A DNA stretch of 64,000 bases, from assembly GCA_002709695.1 (NCBI GenBank), contig PAQF01000024.1, positions 1-64,000 on the forward strand, in the 5' to 3' direction. Source of the DNA: Candidatus Poribacteria bacterium. Lineage in GTDB: Bacteria > Poribacteria > WGA-4E > UBA9662. The position numbers were made by a program, and so were the translations under genes. Shown here piece after piece: positions 1 through 9,023 of the stretch (within the stretch, counting starts at the first letter, position 1; each line of letters starts with the position of its first letter). Below the pieces are notes generated by a model. The model searched no databases. It had not been told where the DNA came from and saw only the letters and a list, made by a program, of their open reading frames with translations.

Positions 1-13
1 AATTTTACCCAAC

Positions 14-42
14 AAACGCATTCGTTTTTTGCGCGTTTTTTT
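14..42 (+). terminator. putative intrinsic terminator for a gene left of the window
   Basis: The arms AAACGC (14-19) and GCGTTT (33-38) pair across a 13-nt loop and run into a short T tract on the plus strand. It would end a plus-strand gene lying outside the window that converges on the deacetylase. The stem is only six pairs, so this is tentative. Confidence 0.4.
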
Positions 43-56
43 ATTTGGCAATCAAT

Positions 57-899
57 TTAGACTGTTGCCATTTCAGTGTATAAATTGGGAGGTGAGATGA
101 AACGGATACCTAGGTCTTTAGCTCGGATAATCAGTTCCTCAATCCAAGCTCCTTTTGTTTGGAAGAAGGTTTCGACGTCTACCGTACCATGGTCGTGGGA
201 GCAAACATTCCAAACCAGGTTTCCATCAGCGACTTTTTCCAACATAGCAAAAAGGTAATCTTGGTAAGAATCACCGAATCGACGATCATCAAATCGGTCC
301 CAATAAAAATCGTCTTGGTATCCTTGAACCCCCAATTCTAATATTTCTGAAAAACCTTGATCTGTGTAGAAAAATGGTTGTTCACTAAAAGGCGTTGGTT
401 GGCAATCACGGTAATCCCGGGCATTGGTTCGAATCCATTTAATTCCATTATCCGATAAAATTTGTAGGATATCTGGTCGATCTACCAACCCTCGGTAGTA
501 GCCCCATGGTCCAGTTAAGCCTTGGCATTCAATTTTTAGTAAATCGATAATTAAATTCTGCGTGCTGTGGATTTCTTGTTGAATTTGCTCTAAAGTACCC
601 CCCTGATGGAAAAAGTTGGGTGAGTTGCCGTGGATAGGTTTGCCATCATCTGGACGCATATAGATGGACTTTAAGAGAACGTGATTGAAAGTATGTTGAC
701 CTATTGACAGTAGTGGTTCATCCATTACCTCTCGGATATCTTCAGCACGTGCAGATAGTGTTTGGCCTGTAACATAGATGGTCCAAGGTACATTGTGTTT
801 TTGATGCAATTGTTGAGCACCTTGTAAAAAGCCCTTGGTTGCTTCGGATGCACTCTCTACATCGTATCCAAATATGATTGAACCATGGGTTGTTGACAT
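57..899 (-). CDS. polysaccharide deacetylase (NodB-like) family protein
   Basis: A 280-aa protein of the carbohydrate esterase 4 / NodB-homology type, predicted to hydrolyse N- or O-acyl groups from a polysaccharide or to act on a related amide. The metal triad of the family is visible: Asp13 in 'FGYDVES' and the HxxxH pair His69 and His73 in 'GQHTFNH'. A later 'GPWGYYRG' segment (about residues 130-137) resembles the motif-3 region. There is no signal peptide, so it is probably cytoplasmic, which is common in the PuuE/allantoinase-like branch, and the substrate is therefore uncertain. The ATG at 899 is preceded on the minus strand by AGAAGGAG at good spacing, which fixes the start. The stop is TAA. 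It is separated by a 560-bp spacer from the broken GH10 gene on the same strand. Confidence 0.8.
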   Translation of the reverse strand: MSTTHGSIIFGYDVESASEATKGFLQGAQQLHQKHNVPWTIYVTGQTLSARAEDIREVMDEPLLSIGQHTFNHVLLKSIYMRPDDGKPIHGNSPNFFHQGGTLEQIQQEIHSTQNLIIDLLKIECQGLTGPWGYYRGLVDRPDILQILSDNGIKWIRTNARDYRDCQPTPFSEQPFFYTDQGFSEILELGVQGYQDDFYWDRFDDRRFGDSYQDYLFAMLEKVADGNLVWNVCSHDHGTVDVETFFQTKGAWIEELIIRAKDLGIRFISPPNLYTEMATV

Positions 900-1460
900 T
901 TTTGTATTTCTCCTTCTAAAGACTAAAGTATTTCAGCTTGTGAAGTCTTATCTGTGTCATTAAATTTAAAGGAACAATGTTGATATTTGTATCTAATTTT
1001 TTCTGGCTAATTCTAATTGCTATTGTTAGGTTAGGGAATAATATCGAACTGATTTTTGATGAAGTTTTTGTTTGCCTATATTAGTAGGTTAAGATCGAGA
1101 TTAGACTCGTGGGAGGCGATCTATTGCATGACTTAGTTTGGACTGAAAACTCAGATGACGCATTATACCATGGTCATAGTGCAGAGTAAATAGGTGGTGA
1201 TAACCATAATTGGGGTTCTTAATCCAAGTTAAGTATGCAATCATAAATAGACAGGACGGCTAGCAACTGAGTCTTCCATTTTTAGTTGATATGCTTCTGT
1301 TTTAAAATTGCCAGTTATTGCAATGGTATTTTAAAAACCACTTTTTTCACCATCTGAATGTTTTTGGCATCTTCACTTTATAATAGCCCCTTGTATTAAT
1401 GGTTGGAAATGGTGTAACTAAGGTTAGATTTTCTTAAGGTCCAAACGAACTAGTTATGCG
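900..1460. other. intergenic, no intact gene
   Basis: A 561-bp spacer upstream of the deacetylase on the minus strand. I see the deacetylase ribosome-binding site at its left end and no convincing ORF, RNA gene or repeat. A short open stretch on the plus strand near 1120-1190 (reading LVWTENSDDALYHGH) could be a decayed coding remnant, but it is too short to identify. Confidence 0.5.
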
Positions 1461-2597
1461 TTAATCCGCTTGAGGAGGGTTTTCCAGTACTTTTTGTAAA
1501 GCATAGTAGGCAGGTTTAGCCCTATAATTTCGGTCAAAGAGGCATCCCTCCAGTTTCCTCTTTTTTTTCCATGAATCCCTATCACTAAGATTCCATACGT
1601 TCCAAGTAACAACACCCCCATTTCGCTTCTTTAGCAGTAGTCTCAGCATAGCTTCAAAAGTCTGGGCTTGAGCGTGGTAATCTTTCTTATCATTTCTTAA
1701 CCAAACATTGTTCTCTGTTATGTGAAAAGATAGTCGATTGTCGTGAGCCCAATCTATCAATGCATCCAACTTGTTCATGTTGTTGGATTCCTGTTCTCAA
1801 CCAACATCAATATGTGCCTGCCAACCAATTCCATCAACCCGCAAGTTGTGTTGGCGCAAATAGGAGGCAAGGGCCTTAATTTTCTGCCACATTAATTTTT
1901 CCATGCCTCCATGCTGATTGATAATTAAATCTGTATTTGGAGCATGTTTGTTAGCCAGCTCAAAAGCCAACTTGATGTATCGTGGTGGATTCAGAGTATG
2001 GTTGGTATCATTGCCTAGAAATGTCCATGGGTTTTCCCATTTCTCAGTGCCATTTTTAGCATGATGCCATTTACCATTCTGTAGAACGGTTTCGTTTACT
2101 ACGTCTATCCACTTGACGTGTGGATGTTTATCGTAGCGTTGGCACAAAGCGGTCATGAATTCTATTAAATTTTGTCTCAACTCTCCAACTGTTCGGTTGT
2201 CATCCTTAGTCCACGCTGAGCACTGAGGTCCAATTGGTCCATGGATACGTAGGATTTGCTGCTGTTTATGGCAGTGTTCAACCCATGCATCGGCTTCTTG
2301 CCAATTTCAGGCATTGGGTCGTGGCTGAATTATTCTCTGTTTGAAATTGTTTTCAGGTGTTACGTAACTAAATTCACGATCTATAGTCACACCAGCACCG
2401 TTTGGACGTTTGCGCCAACCGGTTGTGCCGCCAATGTAAACGTGAGTCGGATATTTATCCGCTACTATCTGACGAAAACGACGTCCATCAGGCAAAGGAG
2501 GTTCCGCACTCCATACTCCAGAAATAATAAATGTTAGAAGCAACGCTGAGGTAAGTTTAGCACTTCGTATTTCGATACTCATACCACCTATCCCCAT
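1461..2597 (-). pseudogene. GH10 endo-1,4-beta-xylanase-like gene with two in-frame TGA codons
   Basis: A single 379-codon frame (no frameshift) covers a secreted glycoside hydrolase family 10 protein: an N-terminal hydrophobic signal peptide ending near 'GVWSA', the N-terminal barrel segment 'SYVTPENNF', the acid/base Glu in 'DVVNET', the nucleophile Glu in 'FHITENN', and a typical C-terminal 'LFDRNYRAKPAYYAL'. The frame is interrupted only by TGA at 2307-2309 and TGA at 1797-1799. The first falls in 'RPNA-*-NWQEAD', where GH10 enzymes have an aromatic residue before the 'AD' helix. The second follows 'GWQAHIDVG' and a Trp is plausible there as well. Elsewhere in the frame Trp is TGG. Both catalytic glutamates and the rest of the fold are preserved, so this is either a very young pseudogene or a frame needing UGA readthrough. 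It lies 47 bp downstream of the GH16 gene, probably in one transcription unit. The start is ATG 2597 or the in-frame ATG five codons later (GGGGAT upstream). Confidence 0.8.
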
Positions 2598-2644
2598 TTT
2601 TTGGTTATCAAAGGTGCATTTTAAAGGATCTTAATTAATTTGTG

Positions 2645-3466
2645 CTAAGATTTTTTCTGATACACCCGGACGAAGTCAATTTCATATCGGCATGGAAACG
2701 GTGTTTGAGTGGGATCTCCTCCGTTTTGGCCTCCGATAGCCAGATTTAGCAAAAGATAATGAGGTTGGTGAAATGGGTTTTTGGGCCCCTTATTATTCGC
2801 ATTGATTGTGTGACTGAGATCAATGGTGTTGAGTAAAATCCCATCTACTGAGAGTAGAATTTTTTGGCTGTTCCATTCCATTCGCCAAAGATGAAATTTT
2901 TGATGCCATTTAGGGTCCGAAAAGAATGAAAGTGGTTTTGTAATTACATTCCATTTGGGTTGCCAGCGCTGTTGCGTGCCCCAGCAGGCATTAGCCAATA
3001 TATTCCCCTGGTAGTATTCCATCAGGTCTATTTCTCCACAACTAGGCCATTCACCCTCAACGCCAAGAAACCATATAGCGGGCCAGAGACCATTTTGGGT
3101 TCTAATTCGGGCTTTGACTTCAAAAATACCATATTTCCAGCTATGGAGACCTCTGGTGGTGAGGCAAGAAGAAGTATACTCCACAGACGGTCTGTTTTTC
3201 CTCCAATCATTGCTTCCTTTCTGATAATTGGGGTTAGGTTTATGTTGTCGTCGGCCCTCAATAATTAGCATCCTTTTTTGACAAAATGCATTATCTTTTT
3301 GATACCATTGTAGTTCCTGATTACGGACAAAACCATATTCATAGACCCAATGTTTTTGGTCTGGTTCCCCGTCAACTTCAAATTCATCTGACCACACCAA
3401 TTTATATTCTTCGGAAACTTGGTTTAAAGAATTAATAGACGACATCACTGCTGTAACTAACAGCAA
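2645..3466 (-). CDS. glycoside hydrolase family 16 (beta-glucanase/laminarinase-like)
   Basis: A 273-aa enzyme predicted to cleave beta-1,3- or beta-1,3/1,4-glucans by a retaining mechanism. The GH16 signature ExDxxE is intact as Glu145-Ile-Asp147-Leu-Met-Glu150 in 'GEIDLMEYY'. The opening 'YKLVWSDEFEVDG' and the closing 'YEIDFVRVYQ' strands are also characteristic, and the length matches a stand-alone catalytic domain. The first 15 residues are short and hydrophobic ('LLVTAVM'), possibly a truncated signal peptide. The start is a TTG at 3466 with GAGAGG directly before it. An internal ATG (codon 8) is an alternative, and the frame is open upstream to a TAA at 3488-3490 without a better start. 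It is followed by the GH10 frame at 47 bp, giving a glycan-degrading pair. A perfect 17-bp inverted repeat sits just upstream. Confidence 0.88.
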   Translation of the reverse strand: MLLVTAVMSSINSLNQVSEEYKLVWSDEFEVDGEPDQKHWVYEYGFVRNQELQWYQKDNAFCQKRMLIIEGRRQHKPNPNYQKGSNDWRKNRPSVEYTSSCLTTRGLHSWKYGIFEVKARIRTQNGLWPAIWFLGVEGEWPSCGEIDLMEYYQGNILANACWGTQQRWQPKWNVITKPLSFFSDPKWHQKFHLWRMEWNSQKILLSVDGILLNTIDLSHTINANNKGPKNPFHQPHYLLLNLAIGGQNGGDPTQTPFPCRYEIDFVRVYQKKS

Positions 3467-3824
3467 ACCTCTCGTTTTTAGGCGATTTTAGCATGTTTGT
3501 CTGAAAAATTCAGTTTTTCAGACAAACATGGATAGTAGTAACTATTAACAGAAGTTAGCTTAAATGCTATTCTAAAGTTATCAGCGGAAAACTATTGATC
3601 AAATAATATGCTAATTATAGTTTAAAACACTCCCAAAATTTGGAACTCTTTCTTTGGAGCATTGATCATGGTTTCATACTGAATTCAGTTTTGACTAAAG
3701 AACGGATTATATAATGGATAAGTGGGTTGTCAATGATAAATTTGGAAGAGGAAAGCCAATATAAAGCTATCATCATTTAACCTGGGATTCTTCTAAAATA
3801 GGATCTTAAATCATTGTACTGATA
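3467..3824. other. intergenic spacer upstream of the GH16 gene
   Basis: A 358-bp AT-rich spacer between the MacB-type permease and the GH16 gene, both on the minus strand. It contains the strong palindrome listed separately. I see no ORF or RNA gene in the rest. Confidence 0.5.
3492..3530. repeat. perfect 17-bp inverted repeat (hairpin)
   Basis: The arms CATGTTTGTCTGAAAAA (3492-3508) and TTTTTCAGACAAACATG (3514-3530) are perfectly complementary around a 5-nt TTCAG loop. It lies 25 bp upstream of the GH16 start codon, in its likely 5' leader. There is no T tract on the minus strand after it, so it is not a classic terminator for the upstream permease. A regulatory hairpin, an operator or a small mobile-element relic are possible. 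Confidence 0.85.
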
Positions 3825-5111
3825 TTATTCTATTCTCAAGGCTTCAACTGGTTGTAATCTAGAAGCCCTAATAGCAGGATACAGCCCAAAGCCGATACCA
3901 ATGGAAGCTGAAAAAAGAATGGATATCACTGCCCATTTTATAGGAAATACCATCGGCCATTTATCCACAAGAGTGATAAAATGGGAAAGACCTATTGAAA
4001 TACCATAAGCTATAAAAAAACCCAAGATAATGCCGATAGTGCCACCGATGCTGGACATAATAGTGGATTCAGCCAAAAACTGGAAGAAAATATCTTGCTT
4101 TTTAGCACCTAGTGCCTTCCTCAACCCAATTTCTCGGGTCCTTTCATTAACAGAAACCAATACCATATTCATAATGCCGATACCGCCAACAACAAGAGAG
4201 ATAAAAGCAATACTGGTTAGGGAAATTTGTAAAACTACACGAATTTTGTCCAGTGGTCCAGTGGCAAAGTCGGCAGCGATCCATGTGCCATAATACTCTT
4301 CTTGCACATTATGGTGTTTCTTGATAATTTCCATTACTTCTTTAGAGGCTTGTTGAACTTTTTCTGGAGTTACAGCCTTAATTGAGAAATAATCAATATA
4401 GTTGTTGCCAATAAAACGATCCTGAAGGGCTGTTATAGGTAAATAGAGGTCATCATCTAGATTCCATCCTTGCCTCATACTTACCCCTTTTGATGATAAG
4501 ATACCAACAACGGTGAATCTTTCGGATATTGTTCCTCTTTGTCCCATTCTGCCTCTTTGCCCCATTGTGAGTCTAACTTCTTTTCCAATTGGATCCTCGT
4601 TTTGGAATAGTTCTTCTACGAAGTCCCAACCTAGGACAGTAACTCTCGATCTTTTGGCAACATCTTCGTCAGTTAGGAAACGCCCTAGTACTACTGGTAC
4701 ATCACGTGTAAAAGGATATAGGGGCGTGATGCCATGGAAAGAGACACCCCTTAGTTCGCTGCCATTAGATGATTGAACGCGGCCATTATGTCGCAAAGCG
4801 CAAGAGGTCACATTTTCAACCGATGGCGATTCAGATTCGATCAGAGCTGCGTCTTCCAGTTTAAAATAGTGTTGGCTGGGGTTTGGAACCCAACGATCGT
4901 TCTTACGAATCCAGCCTTTGCGGTATATAGAGAAATTATCTGCTCCACCGAATCTTATTGCTTCGTTGATCAAGATGGTCTTAGCTCCATCTCCAACTGC
5001 AATCATTCCCAAGACAGCGCTAACACCAATGACAATACCAAGGACTGTCAACAAAGACCTCAGTTTGTTAGATGAAATGGCGACCATAGCGGCCCAAAAA
5101 CTTTCAATCAA
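3825..5111 (-). CDS. MacB/FtsX-type ABC transporter permease
   Basis: A 428-aa inner-membrane permease of the MacB/LolC class. It has the usual four-helix layout: one N-terminal helix within residues 12-45 ('KLRSLLTVLGIVIGVSAVLGM'), a large periplasmic MacB_PCD domain of about 230 residues, then three C-terminal helices of the FtsX domain. The conserved cytoplasmic loop 'VNERTREIGLRKALGAKKQDI' precedes helix 3. Such permeases work with a separate LolD/MacB ATPase and often a MacA-type periplasmic adaptor in export or mechanotransmission. Neither partner is in this window. The start is TTG 5111 with AAAGGT upstream. The approximately 1-kb upstream region shows no partner gene, so the partner must be encoded elsewhere or has been lost. 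Confidence 0.9.
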   Translation of the reverse strand: MIESFWAAMVAISSNKLRSLLTVLGIVIGVSAVLGMIAVGDGAKTILINEAIRFGGADNFSIYRKGWIRKNDRWVPNPSQHYFKLEDAALIESESPSVENVTSCALRHNGRVQSSNGSELRGVSFHGITPLYPFTRDVPVVLGRFLTDEDVAKRSRVTVLGWDFVEELFQNEDPIGKEVRLTMGQRGRMGQRGTISERFTVVGILSSKGVSMRQGWNLDDDLYLPITALQDRFIGNNYIDYFSIKAVTPEKVQQASKEVMEIIKKHHNVQEEYYGTWIAADFATGPLDKIRVVLQISLTSIAFISLVVGGIGIMNMVLVSVNERTREIGLRKALGAKKQDIFFQFLAESTIMSSIGGTIGIILGFFIAYGISIGLSHFITLVDKWPMVFPIKWAVISILFSASIGIGFGLYPAIRASRLQPVEALRIE

Positions 5112-6109
5112 GGTTCATTTACCTTTCGTCCAATCGTTGTGTAGGCTTCTGTGCCTGATTCTTATTTTCTAATTTCCGATGGCTGTTCCTAATTAAATTC
5201 ATTCCCTGTACATGATTTTTTTACGTGGGTTTCAATAATTGTTTAGTCCCTTAAGTTAGCTGTTTCAAAATCATCATCTTGGTATCAACAAGCAGAATGC
5301 CAGTAATCAGCTGGGAGTCTACAGCAATCGCTTGGCTAAGCAAAAAAACTTCAAGCTATGAGCGAGAAATGGTGTAAATCCGAATGAACAAAGACTGAGG
5401 GAAGGCCGTCTGTAGCAACGGCTAAAATCCTTGTTGTGCTGGTGCAAAAAACAAATTAATTTGAAAACATGAGTCATCGGGACATATATTTTGAAGTGCC
5501 AAATAATATCTAGATTTATTGAAAAGAAATCAGAAGGACCCAACTAAATCTTGATGCCTATTCTTTATAATTGGGATTAGAGCCATTGCCGCTTTGCTTT
5601 TCTTTTAGATGGTCTTCTTAGTTTTGAGATCTTTCAGTTCCTGCACACTTGCAACGAGCAATTCTTCAACATCCTCAGCATGAACGAAACTTACCAAGGC
5701 AATCATCCGCAACACCGCAAAGATTCTACCCTTAATGTTACTTTTTGCTATAGTAGTGCTTGATTTTTTATGGATCGAGAAATCAGGCAAAACTATATAA
5801 TTCTACACTTCTAACGGTAAAAATAATACTAAAAAGATGTTACGGAAATGTTGAGGCGCTAATGTTTTTGATTTTGTCGCCTAGGATAAGAATTGGAAGA
5901 GAACAGAGCTAACCCAAATATTTACAGTGGAAATGGATGAGCAATGCTATTTAAAAAATGATTACTGTTCTAAGAACAGTTGATGTTTAAACTTATTTGC
6001 TATGAAAGACTATCAGTCGGTTCAAACGAAGAGAAGCTTGGGTTACTATGGTTCCAGCATGATTCTTTTGAATCAATTAAGCGTTTGTTGAAGTACTGCT
6101 TGGATTAGA
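5112..6109. other. about 1 kb with no convincing gene
   Basis: This AT-rich stretch holds only short open frames (for example 61 codons on the minus strand at 5605-5790 and 74 at 5319-5543), with no family resemblance that I recognise and no good ribosome-binding site. A plus-strand segment near 5360-5440 translates in pieces and could be the remnant of a decayed gene. I cannot assign it, and I see no tRNA or repeat. Confidence 0.45.
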
Positions 6110-6649
6110 TTAGATGTATTCGTTTACTGGTTTTGTATTGCTGTCTTTTTTGCCATGAAAATCTGTCATTATCCGCCAAAAAGACAGCCGACCAATTAAA
6201 TATACCGAGGGTAAAATATAATAAAATCGAGGGAAATATGGCCAAAATTCTGTCGCTTGTCCTAATTGAATAAACTTAGTTATATAAAAAGCATCGTCAT
6301 ACCAATTCGAGACGGGAAATGGGAAGGAATCCTGATGAATTGCTAACGCGAGAAAGAAAAACAGATCTTCTATTACAGGAAACAGCCACATTGACCAAAA
6401 AGCTGAAACCCAATTCTGGCAAAGAAAAAAAGTAATTCCAACTGCTGTGATAAACATGAATGTCCAGTAGAAATACATGTTAGGGAAATACTTAGAGATT
6501 TTTAAAGCTCCGTTGTAGTAAGGGCTGTGGAAAGCAATATATTCCAGTACTCCATACATTGCCGAGTAAACTAATATACTTACCAAAGCTGTCTCTTTAG
6601 AACACTGGTTTCTTAATATAAATTTAGCGTTCAAATGATTTTTTCCCAA
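6110..6649 (-). CDS. hypothetical multi-pass membrane protein
   Basis: I do not recognise this 179-aa protein. It is rich in aromatic residues and shows about four hydrophobic segments: residues 20-40 ('ETALVSILVYSAMYGVLEYI'), 58-78, 82-105 and a weaker one near 140-160, which suggests an integral inner-membrane protein. Trp, Tyr and Phe are very abundant in the second half. The start is a TTG at 6649 with no clear Shine-Dalgarno, and the frame is closed by a TAG three codons upstream. It is isolated between two spacers with minus-strand neighbours 1 kb and 0.3 kb away, so context gives no role. It may be a real lineage-specific gene or a shortened one. Confidence 0.55.
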   Translation of the reverse strand: MGKNHLNAKFILRNQCSKETALVSILVYSAMYGVLEYIAFHSPYYNGALKISKYFPNMYFYWTFMFITAVGITFFLCQNWVSAFWSMWLFPVIEDLFFFLALAIHQDSFPFPVSNWYDDAFYITKFIQLGQATEFWPYFPRFYYILPSVYLIGRLSFWRIMTDFHGKKDSNTKPVNEYI

Positions 6650-6984
6650 GATATGCTACTCAAAATCCAGTTGAGATAGATTTAAGTGATCTTTAGATAG
6701 TTGATGTGTTTTGTCGTTGCAGACTTAAAACATGATCTCAAAAATTGGCAGACAACCACACCTCATTCCATATGCCTTAGACCAACACATAGTTAAAGCA
6801 CACTTGGAGATGAAGCTTGGTGACATTGATTAGAAATGCATCTTTACCTTTGGGTAACATCTATTTGCGGTTAGTCTCTGTACATCCCAGAAATCTCATA
6901 CATTTTATTGTTAGTTTCTGATTGGCTTTTTTAGAGAGTCTACTGTACAAATATTATCAATCTGTGTGTACTTCCAACCATTGT
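6650..6984. other. intergenic, nothing recognised
   Basis: This is a 335-bp AT-rich spacer between two minus-strand genes. I see no ORF, RNA gene, repeat or clear terminator. Confidence 0.45.
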
Positions 6985-7665
6985 TTATTCCAATAATAGA
7001 CGGCCAATATCGCAGGTGGTATCATGGCAATACCATAGAATTCCTTCATGTATAGTCATACCATGGACTTCGGTTGGTGCTTCAACACGGATGACATCGT
7101 AAACTCGTCCTGAAATCGGATCTAACAAACAGATAGTGCCCGCAGAGGTATCTGCCGCCCAGAGTCTGCCGTCAATGGCCCAAGCTAATCCATGCACTCG
7201 CAGTCCTGGAGCACGAAAAGCATATTCTTCCTCCCAATTCGCGGGGTTCATAACATGGATCATTTGAGAAGGTGGTGATGCCACGTAAAGCTTGCCTGCC
7301 CGCCATTCTAAACCGTGAGCACCAGTAGATTGAGGGTTTTCTTGATCTTCATTAAAGGCAACTACGCCGGATCCCGGTGAATCATATTTAGCTATAGTAG
7401 AACCAGTTTTCAGATCTAATTGGGCTATTTTGTTCTCATAGGTAGAGGCAATCCACAGATAATCATTTCCCACAGTTATGCCGCTGGAGCTTACCGTGTC
7501 AGTTTGAGCTTCAAAAAGGATTTCACCCGTTTGATAATCCAAGCGGTAAATTTTATTATCAGCTTGGTCGATGCACCACAGCCCATCGGGAGTAGCCTGT
7601 AGGCCATTGGGGTGGGAGCCAGGACTTTTAAACAGCTTTTCTACTCTAGCGAATTTTATGGACAT
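6985..7665 (-). CDS. SMP-30/Vgb-like beta-propeller protein
   Basis: A 226-aa protein built from about five short beta-propeller blades with recurring 'G(L/I).W.A(S/D)' strands: 'DGLWCIDQADNKIYRLD', 'DYLWIASTYENKIAQLD', 'GKLYVASPPSQMIHVM', 'GRLWAADTSAGTICLLD' and 'GILWYCHDTTCDIGRL'. It resembles SMP-30/gluconolactonase or streptogramin-lyase-like (Vgb) propellers but is shorter than a typical six-blade gluconolactonase. An enzymatic role (lactone hydrolysis) is possible but not shown. There is no signal peptide. The ATG at 7665 has AAGGA eight to nine bases upstream, so the start is secure. It is a single gene with a 335-bp spacer downstream. Confidence 0.7.
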   Translation of the reverse strand: MSIKFARVEKLFKSPGSHPNGLQATPDGLWCIDQADNKIYRLDYQTGEILFEAQTDTVSSSGITVGNDYLWIASTYENKIAQLDLKTGSTIAKYDSPGSGVVAFNEDQENPQSTGAHGLEWRAGKLYVASPPSQMIHVMNPANWEEEYAFRAPGLRVHGLAWAIDGRLWAADTSAGTICLLDPISGRVYDVIRVEAPTEVHGMTIHEGILWYCHDTTCDIGRLLLE

Positions 7666-8261
7666 GATATGATTTCCTTGTATTTTATAAATTTTTTGAT
7701 GATACTAGTTTATCAGGTCTCTTTTGGTCATCAAGTTGTAGGTTGACAGTTGAAGTTTTTTATGAATTTTGGCGGTCGCTGATGGTTTGAGAATGTGTTT
7801 TTTTCAGCATCAACCTAGAGATGGGGGAGTTTCTAAATGCTAGATTGCCTTACTTGGCACAACATTCTATCACCATTTTGTTTTGAAGTAAATAGGTCAA
7901 ATTGTCAACAAGATAAGTTTGTTAGGTTTATTGTCCTTCCCTTTGGCTATACTATTCTGAGTGATGGAAACGTGTTCATATTTATATTATACAAAACCTT
8001 GTTCAGACCATTGAAAATATGGCTCTTTGAATTGTGAAGTGGATTAACAAATGACTCAGCATGTACTTGTATTACTCCATGAAGAATTGATTGTAACCTG
8101 AGTAAGAATTGTAAACATAGCAATGCCTTTACGTTTGAGGAAGCCTAAGTGTTTCCTGCTTTCAAAATCAGTGTTCAATGATTATCCAACTGATTTGGCC
8201 TTGACTTTACCATTTCTCATGTTAAGATAATCAAGCTTTATTTCTAGCAAAGAATGAATAT
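7666..8261. other. divergent intergenic region
   Basis: A 596-bp spacer between the minus-strand propeller gene and the plus-strand PhyH/ABC operon. It must carry promoters for both. A 66-codon frame at 7837-8037 has no recognisable similarity or ribosome-binding site and I treat it as chance. Confidence 0.5.
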
Positions 8262-9023
8262 ATGAGCGATCAACTTTTCCATTCCTACCAATTTACCGAA
8301 ACTGAACGCCAACGTATGGATTTAGATGGGCATTTAGCTTATCCAGGCTTGTTAACCCAAGATGTCCAAGTACTTTTGACAGAAGCTTTAGCTCATATTC
8401 AATCTTTGGAACGTGTTGAGGGTTATGAACCTAACCGTTTTGCTGCTGAGTACAATGCATTTTTGGAAGGTCTGATCACTCACCCGGAGATGTTGGAACT
8501 GGTAAACCACGTGCTTGGTAAAGAAGTTCGTTATGATCATTGTGTTACTCTCAACCGCTCAGGTAGTAATGGAGGATCTCACTGGCACAGCCATGGATAT
8601 GCTGAAGACCACCCCCTTTTAGGTTTCATCCGCATCTTCTTTTATGTCAATGGTTTTGAGATCAACGATGGTGGGTTGGCTGTTGTCCCTGGCAGTCACC
8701 TGTTTCGAGACACGAAGATCCATGCTAAGTCGGATGCTGAACTTGAGTCAGGTTGGATGTTAGGTAAGCAGCACCCAATTACAAAGCAACCATTGAAAAT
8801 CGAGCATTTGTCTGTTCCAGCAGGAACAGTGATTCTGATGTGGACGCATGCTGCACATGGTGTATCGGCTCGTCGGCCTGATAGTGATACTCGATGGACA
8901 GTTGTGTATGCTTATCGGAACCCTGGCAAGCCGTCGGGGGCACGTTGGATCAGTCAAGAATATGAGAACCAAAAACGCACTGATCCAAATAGCCCGCTTA
9001 AAGATTTGATCAGCCTATACTAG
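8262..9023 (+). CDS. phytanoyl-CoA dioxygenase (PhyH) family protein with HxH motif
   Basis: A 253-aa cytoplasmic protein with the double-stranded beta-helix of PhyH-type Fe(II)/2-oxoglutarate oxygenases. The core runs from 'RYDHCVTLNRS' (about residue 90) through 'GFIRIFFYVNGFEINDGGLAVVPGSH' to 'VPAGTVILMWTHAAHG'. The usual iron motif HxD is replaced by His107-Trp-His109-Ser-His111. The distal histidine is His196 or His199, and Arg211 is well placed to bind 2-oxoglutarate. The family hydroxylates small molecules or lipids; the altered carboxylate ligand makes the chemistry here uncertain. It is the first gene of an operon: the ABC exporter subunit follows after 11 nt. The ATG at 8262 has only a weak purine-rich leader (AAAGAATG). 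Confidence 0.82.
   Translation: MSDQLFHSYQFTETERQRMDLDGHLAYPGLLTQDVQVLLTEALAHIQSLERVEGYEPNRFAAEYNAFLEGLITHPEMLELVNHVLGKEVRYDHCVTLNRSGSNGGSHWHSHGYAEDHPLLGFIRIFFYVNGFEINDGGLAVVPGSHLFRDTKIHAKSDAELESGWMLGKQHPITKQPLKIEHLSVPAGTVILMWTHAAHGVSARRPDSDTRWTVVYAYRNPGKPSGARWISQEYENQKRTDPNSPLKDLISLY

Follow-up and report, generated by a model that had tools for sequence, protein, structure and literature searches.

Two in-frame TGA codons in an otherwise intact GH10 glycoside hydrolase frame of Candidatus Poribacteria probably mark a recent pseudogene

Conserved in-frame stop codons under purifying selection are widely reported from bacteria (PMC7918605), and a tRNA-Trp(CCA) variant with a 4-bp anticodon stem was shown to raise UGA readthrough (PMC13092985). 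UGA can also specify selenocysteine (Sec), and the parts of a review used here list peroxiredoxins with one Sec (PMC13188914). In this study we describe a GH10 glycoside hydrolase frame with two in-frame TGA codons from a Candidatus Poribacteria genome. The window, by which we mean the whole stretch of DNA analysed, comprises 64,000 nucleotides and begins with the first base of its contig. In our judgement, this frame is probably a recently inactivated, laterally acquired and dispensable accessory gene that carries two nonsense changes.

The GH10 frame occupies positions 1461..2597 on the minus strand. It translates into 378 residues and closes with TAA; inside it there are exactly two stops, and each is a TGA. 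The first lies at 2307-2309 (codon 97) and the second at 1797-1799 (codon 267), both numbered from 2597, and the two are about 510 bases apart. Neither a frameshift nor an internal TAA or TAG was found in the frame. When read through, it matched Pfam Glyco_hydro_10 (PF00331) over profile positions 31-309 of 311 with 146 bits (cut-off 22.1), and a whole-genome profile search returned the same match, with two TGA inside, as the sole GH10 match of the genome. Both catalytic Glu regions, DVVNET and FHITENN, were kept and aligned with those of intact relatives. The frame thus has the profile score and the two catalytic regions of a GH10 enzyme and lacks an uninterrupted reading frame; a sequence-only reading of this DNA had already described the two TGAs, the preserved catalytic regions and the absence of a frameshift. 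Translation probably begins at the ATG at 2580-2582, which gives MSIEIRSAKLTSALLLTFIISGVWSA..., an N-terminus that looks like a signal peptide. Counted from this assumed start (2582), the frame has 16 further Trp codons, all TGG.

The residues at the two sites were then read in aligned GH10 proteins from other phyla. The nearest relatives found shared about 62% identity and came from MAGs labelled Verrucomicrobiales, Acidiferrobacteraceae and Victivallaceae, and the Acidiferrobacteraceae-labelled protein was almost identical in sequence to the Verrucomicrobiales-labelled one. At site 1 all three intact homologues carried Trp, and at site 2 Phe was present in two of them (L002 and L003) and Trp in the third (L004). 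Cys was never seen at either site. In the three best-aligned solved GH10 structures, site 1 is Phe or Tyr. The proposal of an aromatic first site and a Trp-compatible second site was therefore borne out, and the residues in the relatives make TGG the likely ancestral codon at site 1 and a plausible one at site 2. A search of IMG/VR for GH10 homologues returned none, and those on plasmids were only distant (about 25-28%) among the matches listed.

The rest of the frame showed no sign of decay. The dicodon scores per codon of the three segments delimited by the TGAs were 0.37, 0.26, and 0.18 (genome median 0.35, 10th percentile 0.19), so all three are coding-like and the third is close to the 10th percentile of the genome. 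At 146 bits, the Pfam score fell between those of two intact relatives (156 and 143). Where three sequences could be aligned, this frame had 44 residue changes of its own, compared with 44 in L004 and 37 in L002, which indicates no acceleration in this lineage. The disabling changes are missing from the relatives at about 62% identity, whose frames are intact. These results indicated that any inactivation is recent, since there is no excess of private changes and the Pfam score is in the range of intact relatives; the option of a very young pseudogene, raised in the sequence-only reading, was supported.

The choice of stop codon was also considered. Given the codons at risk, chance alone would make both of two nonsense changes TGG-to-TGA in 1-4% of cases, and both TGA of whatever origin in 8-12%. 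These figures are post hoc and mildly favour something Trp-specific. Such a hint counts for less than the much higher prior probability of pseudogenes together with the lack of Trp recoding machinery described below.

No close GH10 homologue was found in 84 other genomes of the phylum, which marks the gene as accessory, and it was probably acquired laterally. A genome from a neighbouring member of the family (G002) holds a distant GH10 relative (28%). Downstream of the frame lies a polysaccharide-deacetylase family gene (57..899, minus strand), whose product is 88% identical to one in a genome of the same genus (G001). Upstream lies a GH16 gene (2645..3466, minus strand) with an unbroken frame, an EIDLME motif and an N-terminus without a clear signal peptide. 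The adjacent deacetylase is kept in G001 and G002, and GH10 and GH16 are not alongside it in the stretches examined. Of GH16, G002 contains only a short remnant at another place (L127:3311-3642, on G002:C509), which matches the GH16 gene of the window in two overlapping pieces, that is, with a broken frame, and we count it on the side of the pseudogene reading.

Other features of this region were recorded. A 39-base near-perfect inverted repeat (TGTTTGTCTGAAAAA...TTTTTCAGACAAACA) at 3492-3530, between a MacB-like gene and GH16, is a candidate terminator or operator. Non-coding stretches at about 8170-8300 and 5600-5727 match several places in G001 and G002 and may represent repeats or upstream regions that are conserved. 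An Rfam search of window positions 1-9000 gave no match.

Direct support for a recent pseudogene comes from the two TGAs, Trp or Phe in the relatives, an otherwise undecayed frame, the rarity in the lineage, the normal tRNA-Trp and the presence of RF2. Against it stand the lack of a frameshift, the lack of TAA or TAG, and the 1-4% chance of a double TGG-to-TGA change. The gene would have been acquired laterally and kept under selection until recently, when two nonsense changes, both TGA and most likely from TGG, would have just inactivated it. We infer TGG as the ancestral codon at both sites and take the changes to be real and fixed. Only the first 96 residues (counted from 2597) would be translated, short of the catalytic part, and presumably no enzyme results. 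A pseudogene of this kind is nothing unusual. As such the gene matters little, being a lost accessory sugar-degrading gene of an apparently uncultured lineage.

The main rival is a consensus or strain-mixture artefact near the contig end: base-calling or assembly mistakes, or minority alleles, would account for the TGAs, and the gene carried by the organism would be intact. Because the window begins at the first base of its contig (C24), GH10 is only 1.5-2.6 kb from the contig end; the assembly is fragmented (87 contigs), and the undecayed remainder of the frame would also fit an intact gene. However, an artefact needs two substitutions that arose independently at a distance of about 510 bases, both making TGA and neither shifting the frame, and the deacetylase and GH16 frames on either side are unbroken. 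We regard this explanation as unlikely.

Programmed or leaky readthrough, which had been put forward as the more exciting option, found no support. The genome has one tRNA-Trp, with anticodon CCA and an ordinary 5-bp anticodon stem; tRNA-Trp(UCA) was sought in the genome and not found, and the 4-bp-stem variant is not present. A weak extra tRNA match (C30:8890-8961) has the loop CCC by eye, not UCA. RF2 is encoded. In the window about ten other gene-like frames end in TGA, in line with the earlier statement that UGA is not simply Trp here because at least seven other genes end in it. No internal stops were present among the approximately 217 PhyH and ABC-transporter matches listed (153 PhyH found; 67 ABC). 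The 153 PhyH (phytanoyl-CoA dioxygenase family) matches in 5.2 Mb are, in their own right, an unusually large expansion.

Interrupted coding frames were scanned in 1.49 Mb of the 5.2-Mb genome. TGA interruptions were rarer (8) than TAA (29) or TAG (22), most of the interrupted frames looked like adjacent genes, and 2 of the 8 TGAs were Sec codons of a tandem peroxiredoxin. The scan threshold of 12, taken over 60 codons downstream of the stop, misses the GH10 frame itself (10.3 and 9.6), so weaker cases could also be missed. No other gene with TGA at a Trp position was found.

Under the readthrough explanation, the ordinary tRNA-Trp(CCA) would read both UGAs rarely and give little full-length enzyme. 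Trp suits both sites, both stops are TGA, and conserved in-frame stops are widely reported from bacteria, all of which favour it. Nevertheless, the tRNA-Trp stem is not of the readthrough-raising form, the loss is multiplied by having two UGAs, TGA-interrupted frames are the rarer ones in 1.49 Mb, and TGA conservation cannot be shown with no close orthologue in the other genomes of the phylum. We consider it improbable. A version in which the UGAs are tolerated, the tRNA-Trp reading them at a low rate that perhaps varies with conditions so that a trickle of GH10 is kept beside Sec decoding, appears highly doubtful to us.

Sec was the other possible meaning of the GH10 UGAs, and had not been foreseen by the sequence-only reading, whose pseudogene option, aromatic sites and non-Trp UGA held up and whose readthrough option did not. 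Other genes of this organism do use UGA as a Sec codon. The selB gene is directly followed by tRNA-Sec(UCA) at C82:26341-28341 (L039, L064, L078). In addition, the interrupted-frame scan revealed a tandem fusion of two Bcp/PrxQ-like AhpC/TSA peroxiredoxin domains with an in-frame TGA at each peroxidatic position (L088:7888-8928, corresponding to G000:C26 about 167888-168928, minus strand; relatives L129-L139). Both TGAs were kept in 18 of the 20 genomes searched, its own included, and one other had a single-domain match with one TGA. Each peroxiredoxin UGA is accompanied by a conserved SECIS-like hairpin, about 16-39 bases from the start of the codon. In the parts of the review used here (PMC13188914) no such form with two domains and two Sec was found, and it may merit separate study.

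Single-sequence folding was non-discriminating, since true Sec sites also fold unremarkably alone, and a held-out covariance model was therefore used. Built without this genome, it gave 55.6 and 50.2 bits at the genome's own peroxiredoxin sites and at most 1.2 bits in GH10; the model, made from the relatives' Sec peroxiredoxins, includes peroxiredoxin coding sequence and so tests the known element of the lineage, not every SECIS. In spite of the Sec machinery and a second gene with two conserved TGAs, Sec insertion at one or both GH10 sites was thus rejected: it is extremely improbable, given Trp or Phe and never Cys in homologues and no match to the SECIS-like element of the lineage.

UGA as Trp throughout the genome, to which two TGAs at aromatic sites would point, was ruled out by the tRNA set, RF2, the listed PhyH and ABC matches, the 1.49-Mb scan and the many genes ending in UGA, and import from a UGA=Trp organism by the TGG at all remaining Trp codons of the frame, so that we assign this explanation next to no probability.

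Compared with known systems, the locus when read through resembles GH10 glycoside hydrolases (PF00331), having the entire domain, the catalytic Glu regions and the predicted fold positions, and differs from them in its two in-frame TGA stops. It resembles bacterial selenoproteins in that its in-frame UGAs occur in an organism possessing tRNA-Sec and SelB, but its sites have neither Cys homologues nor a SECIS-like match. One genome holds a conserved double-UGA Sec peroxiredoxin with its hairpin and, in contrast, a double-UGA GH10 frame for which the apparatus, conservation and signal needed for recoding are missing. Readthrough or reassignment by the 4-bp-stem tRNA-Trp(CCA) (PMC13092985) would likewise put Trp at an in-frame UGA, whereas the tRNA-Trp here has a 5-bp stem. 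With recent bacterial nonsense pseudogenes (PMC7918605) the frame shares few stops, no frameshift and an otherwise intact sequence, and is set apart from them by having two stops, both of which are TGA.
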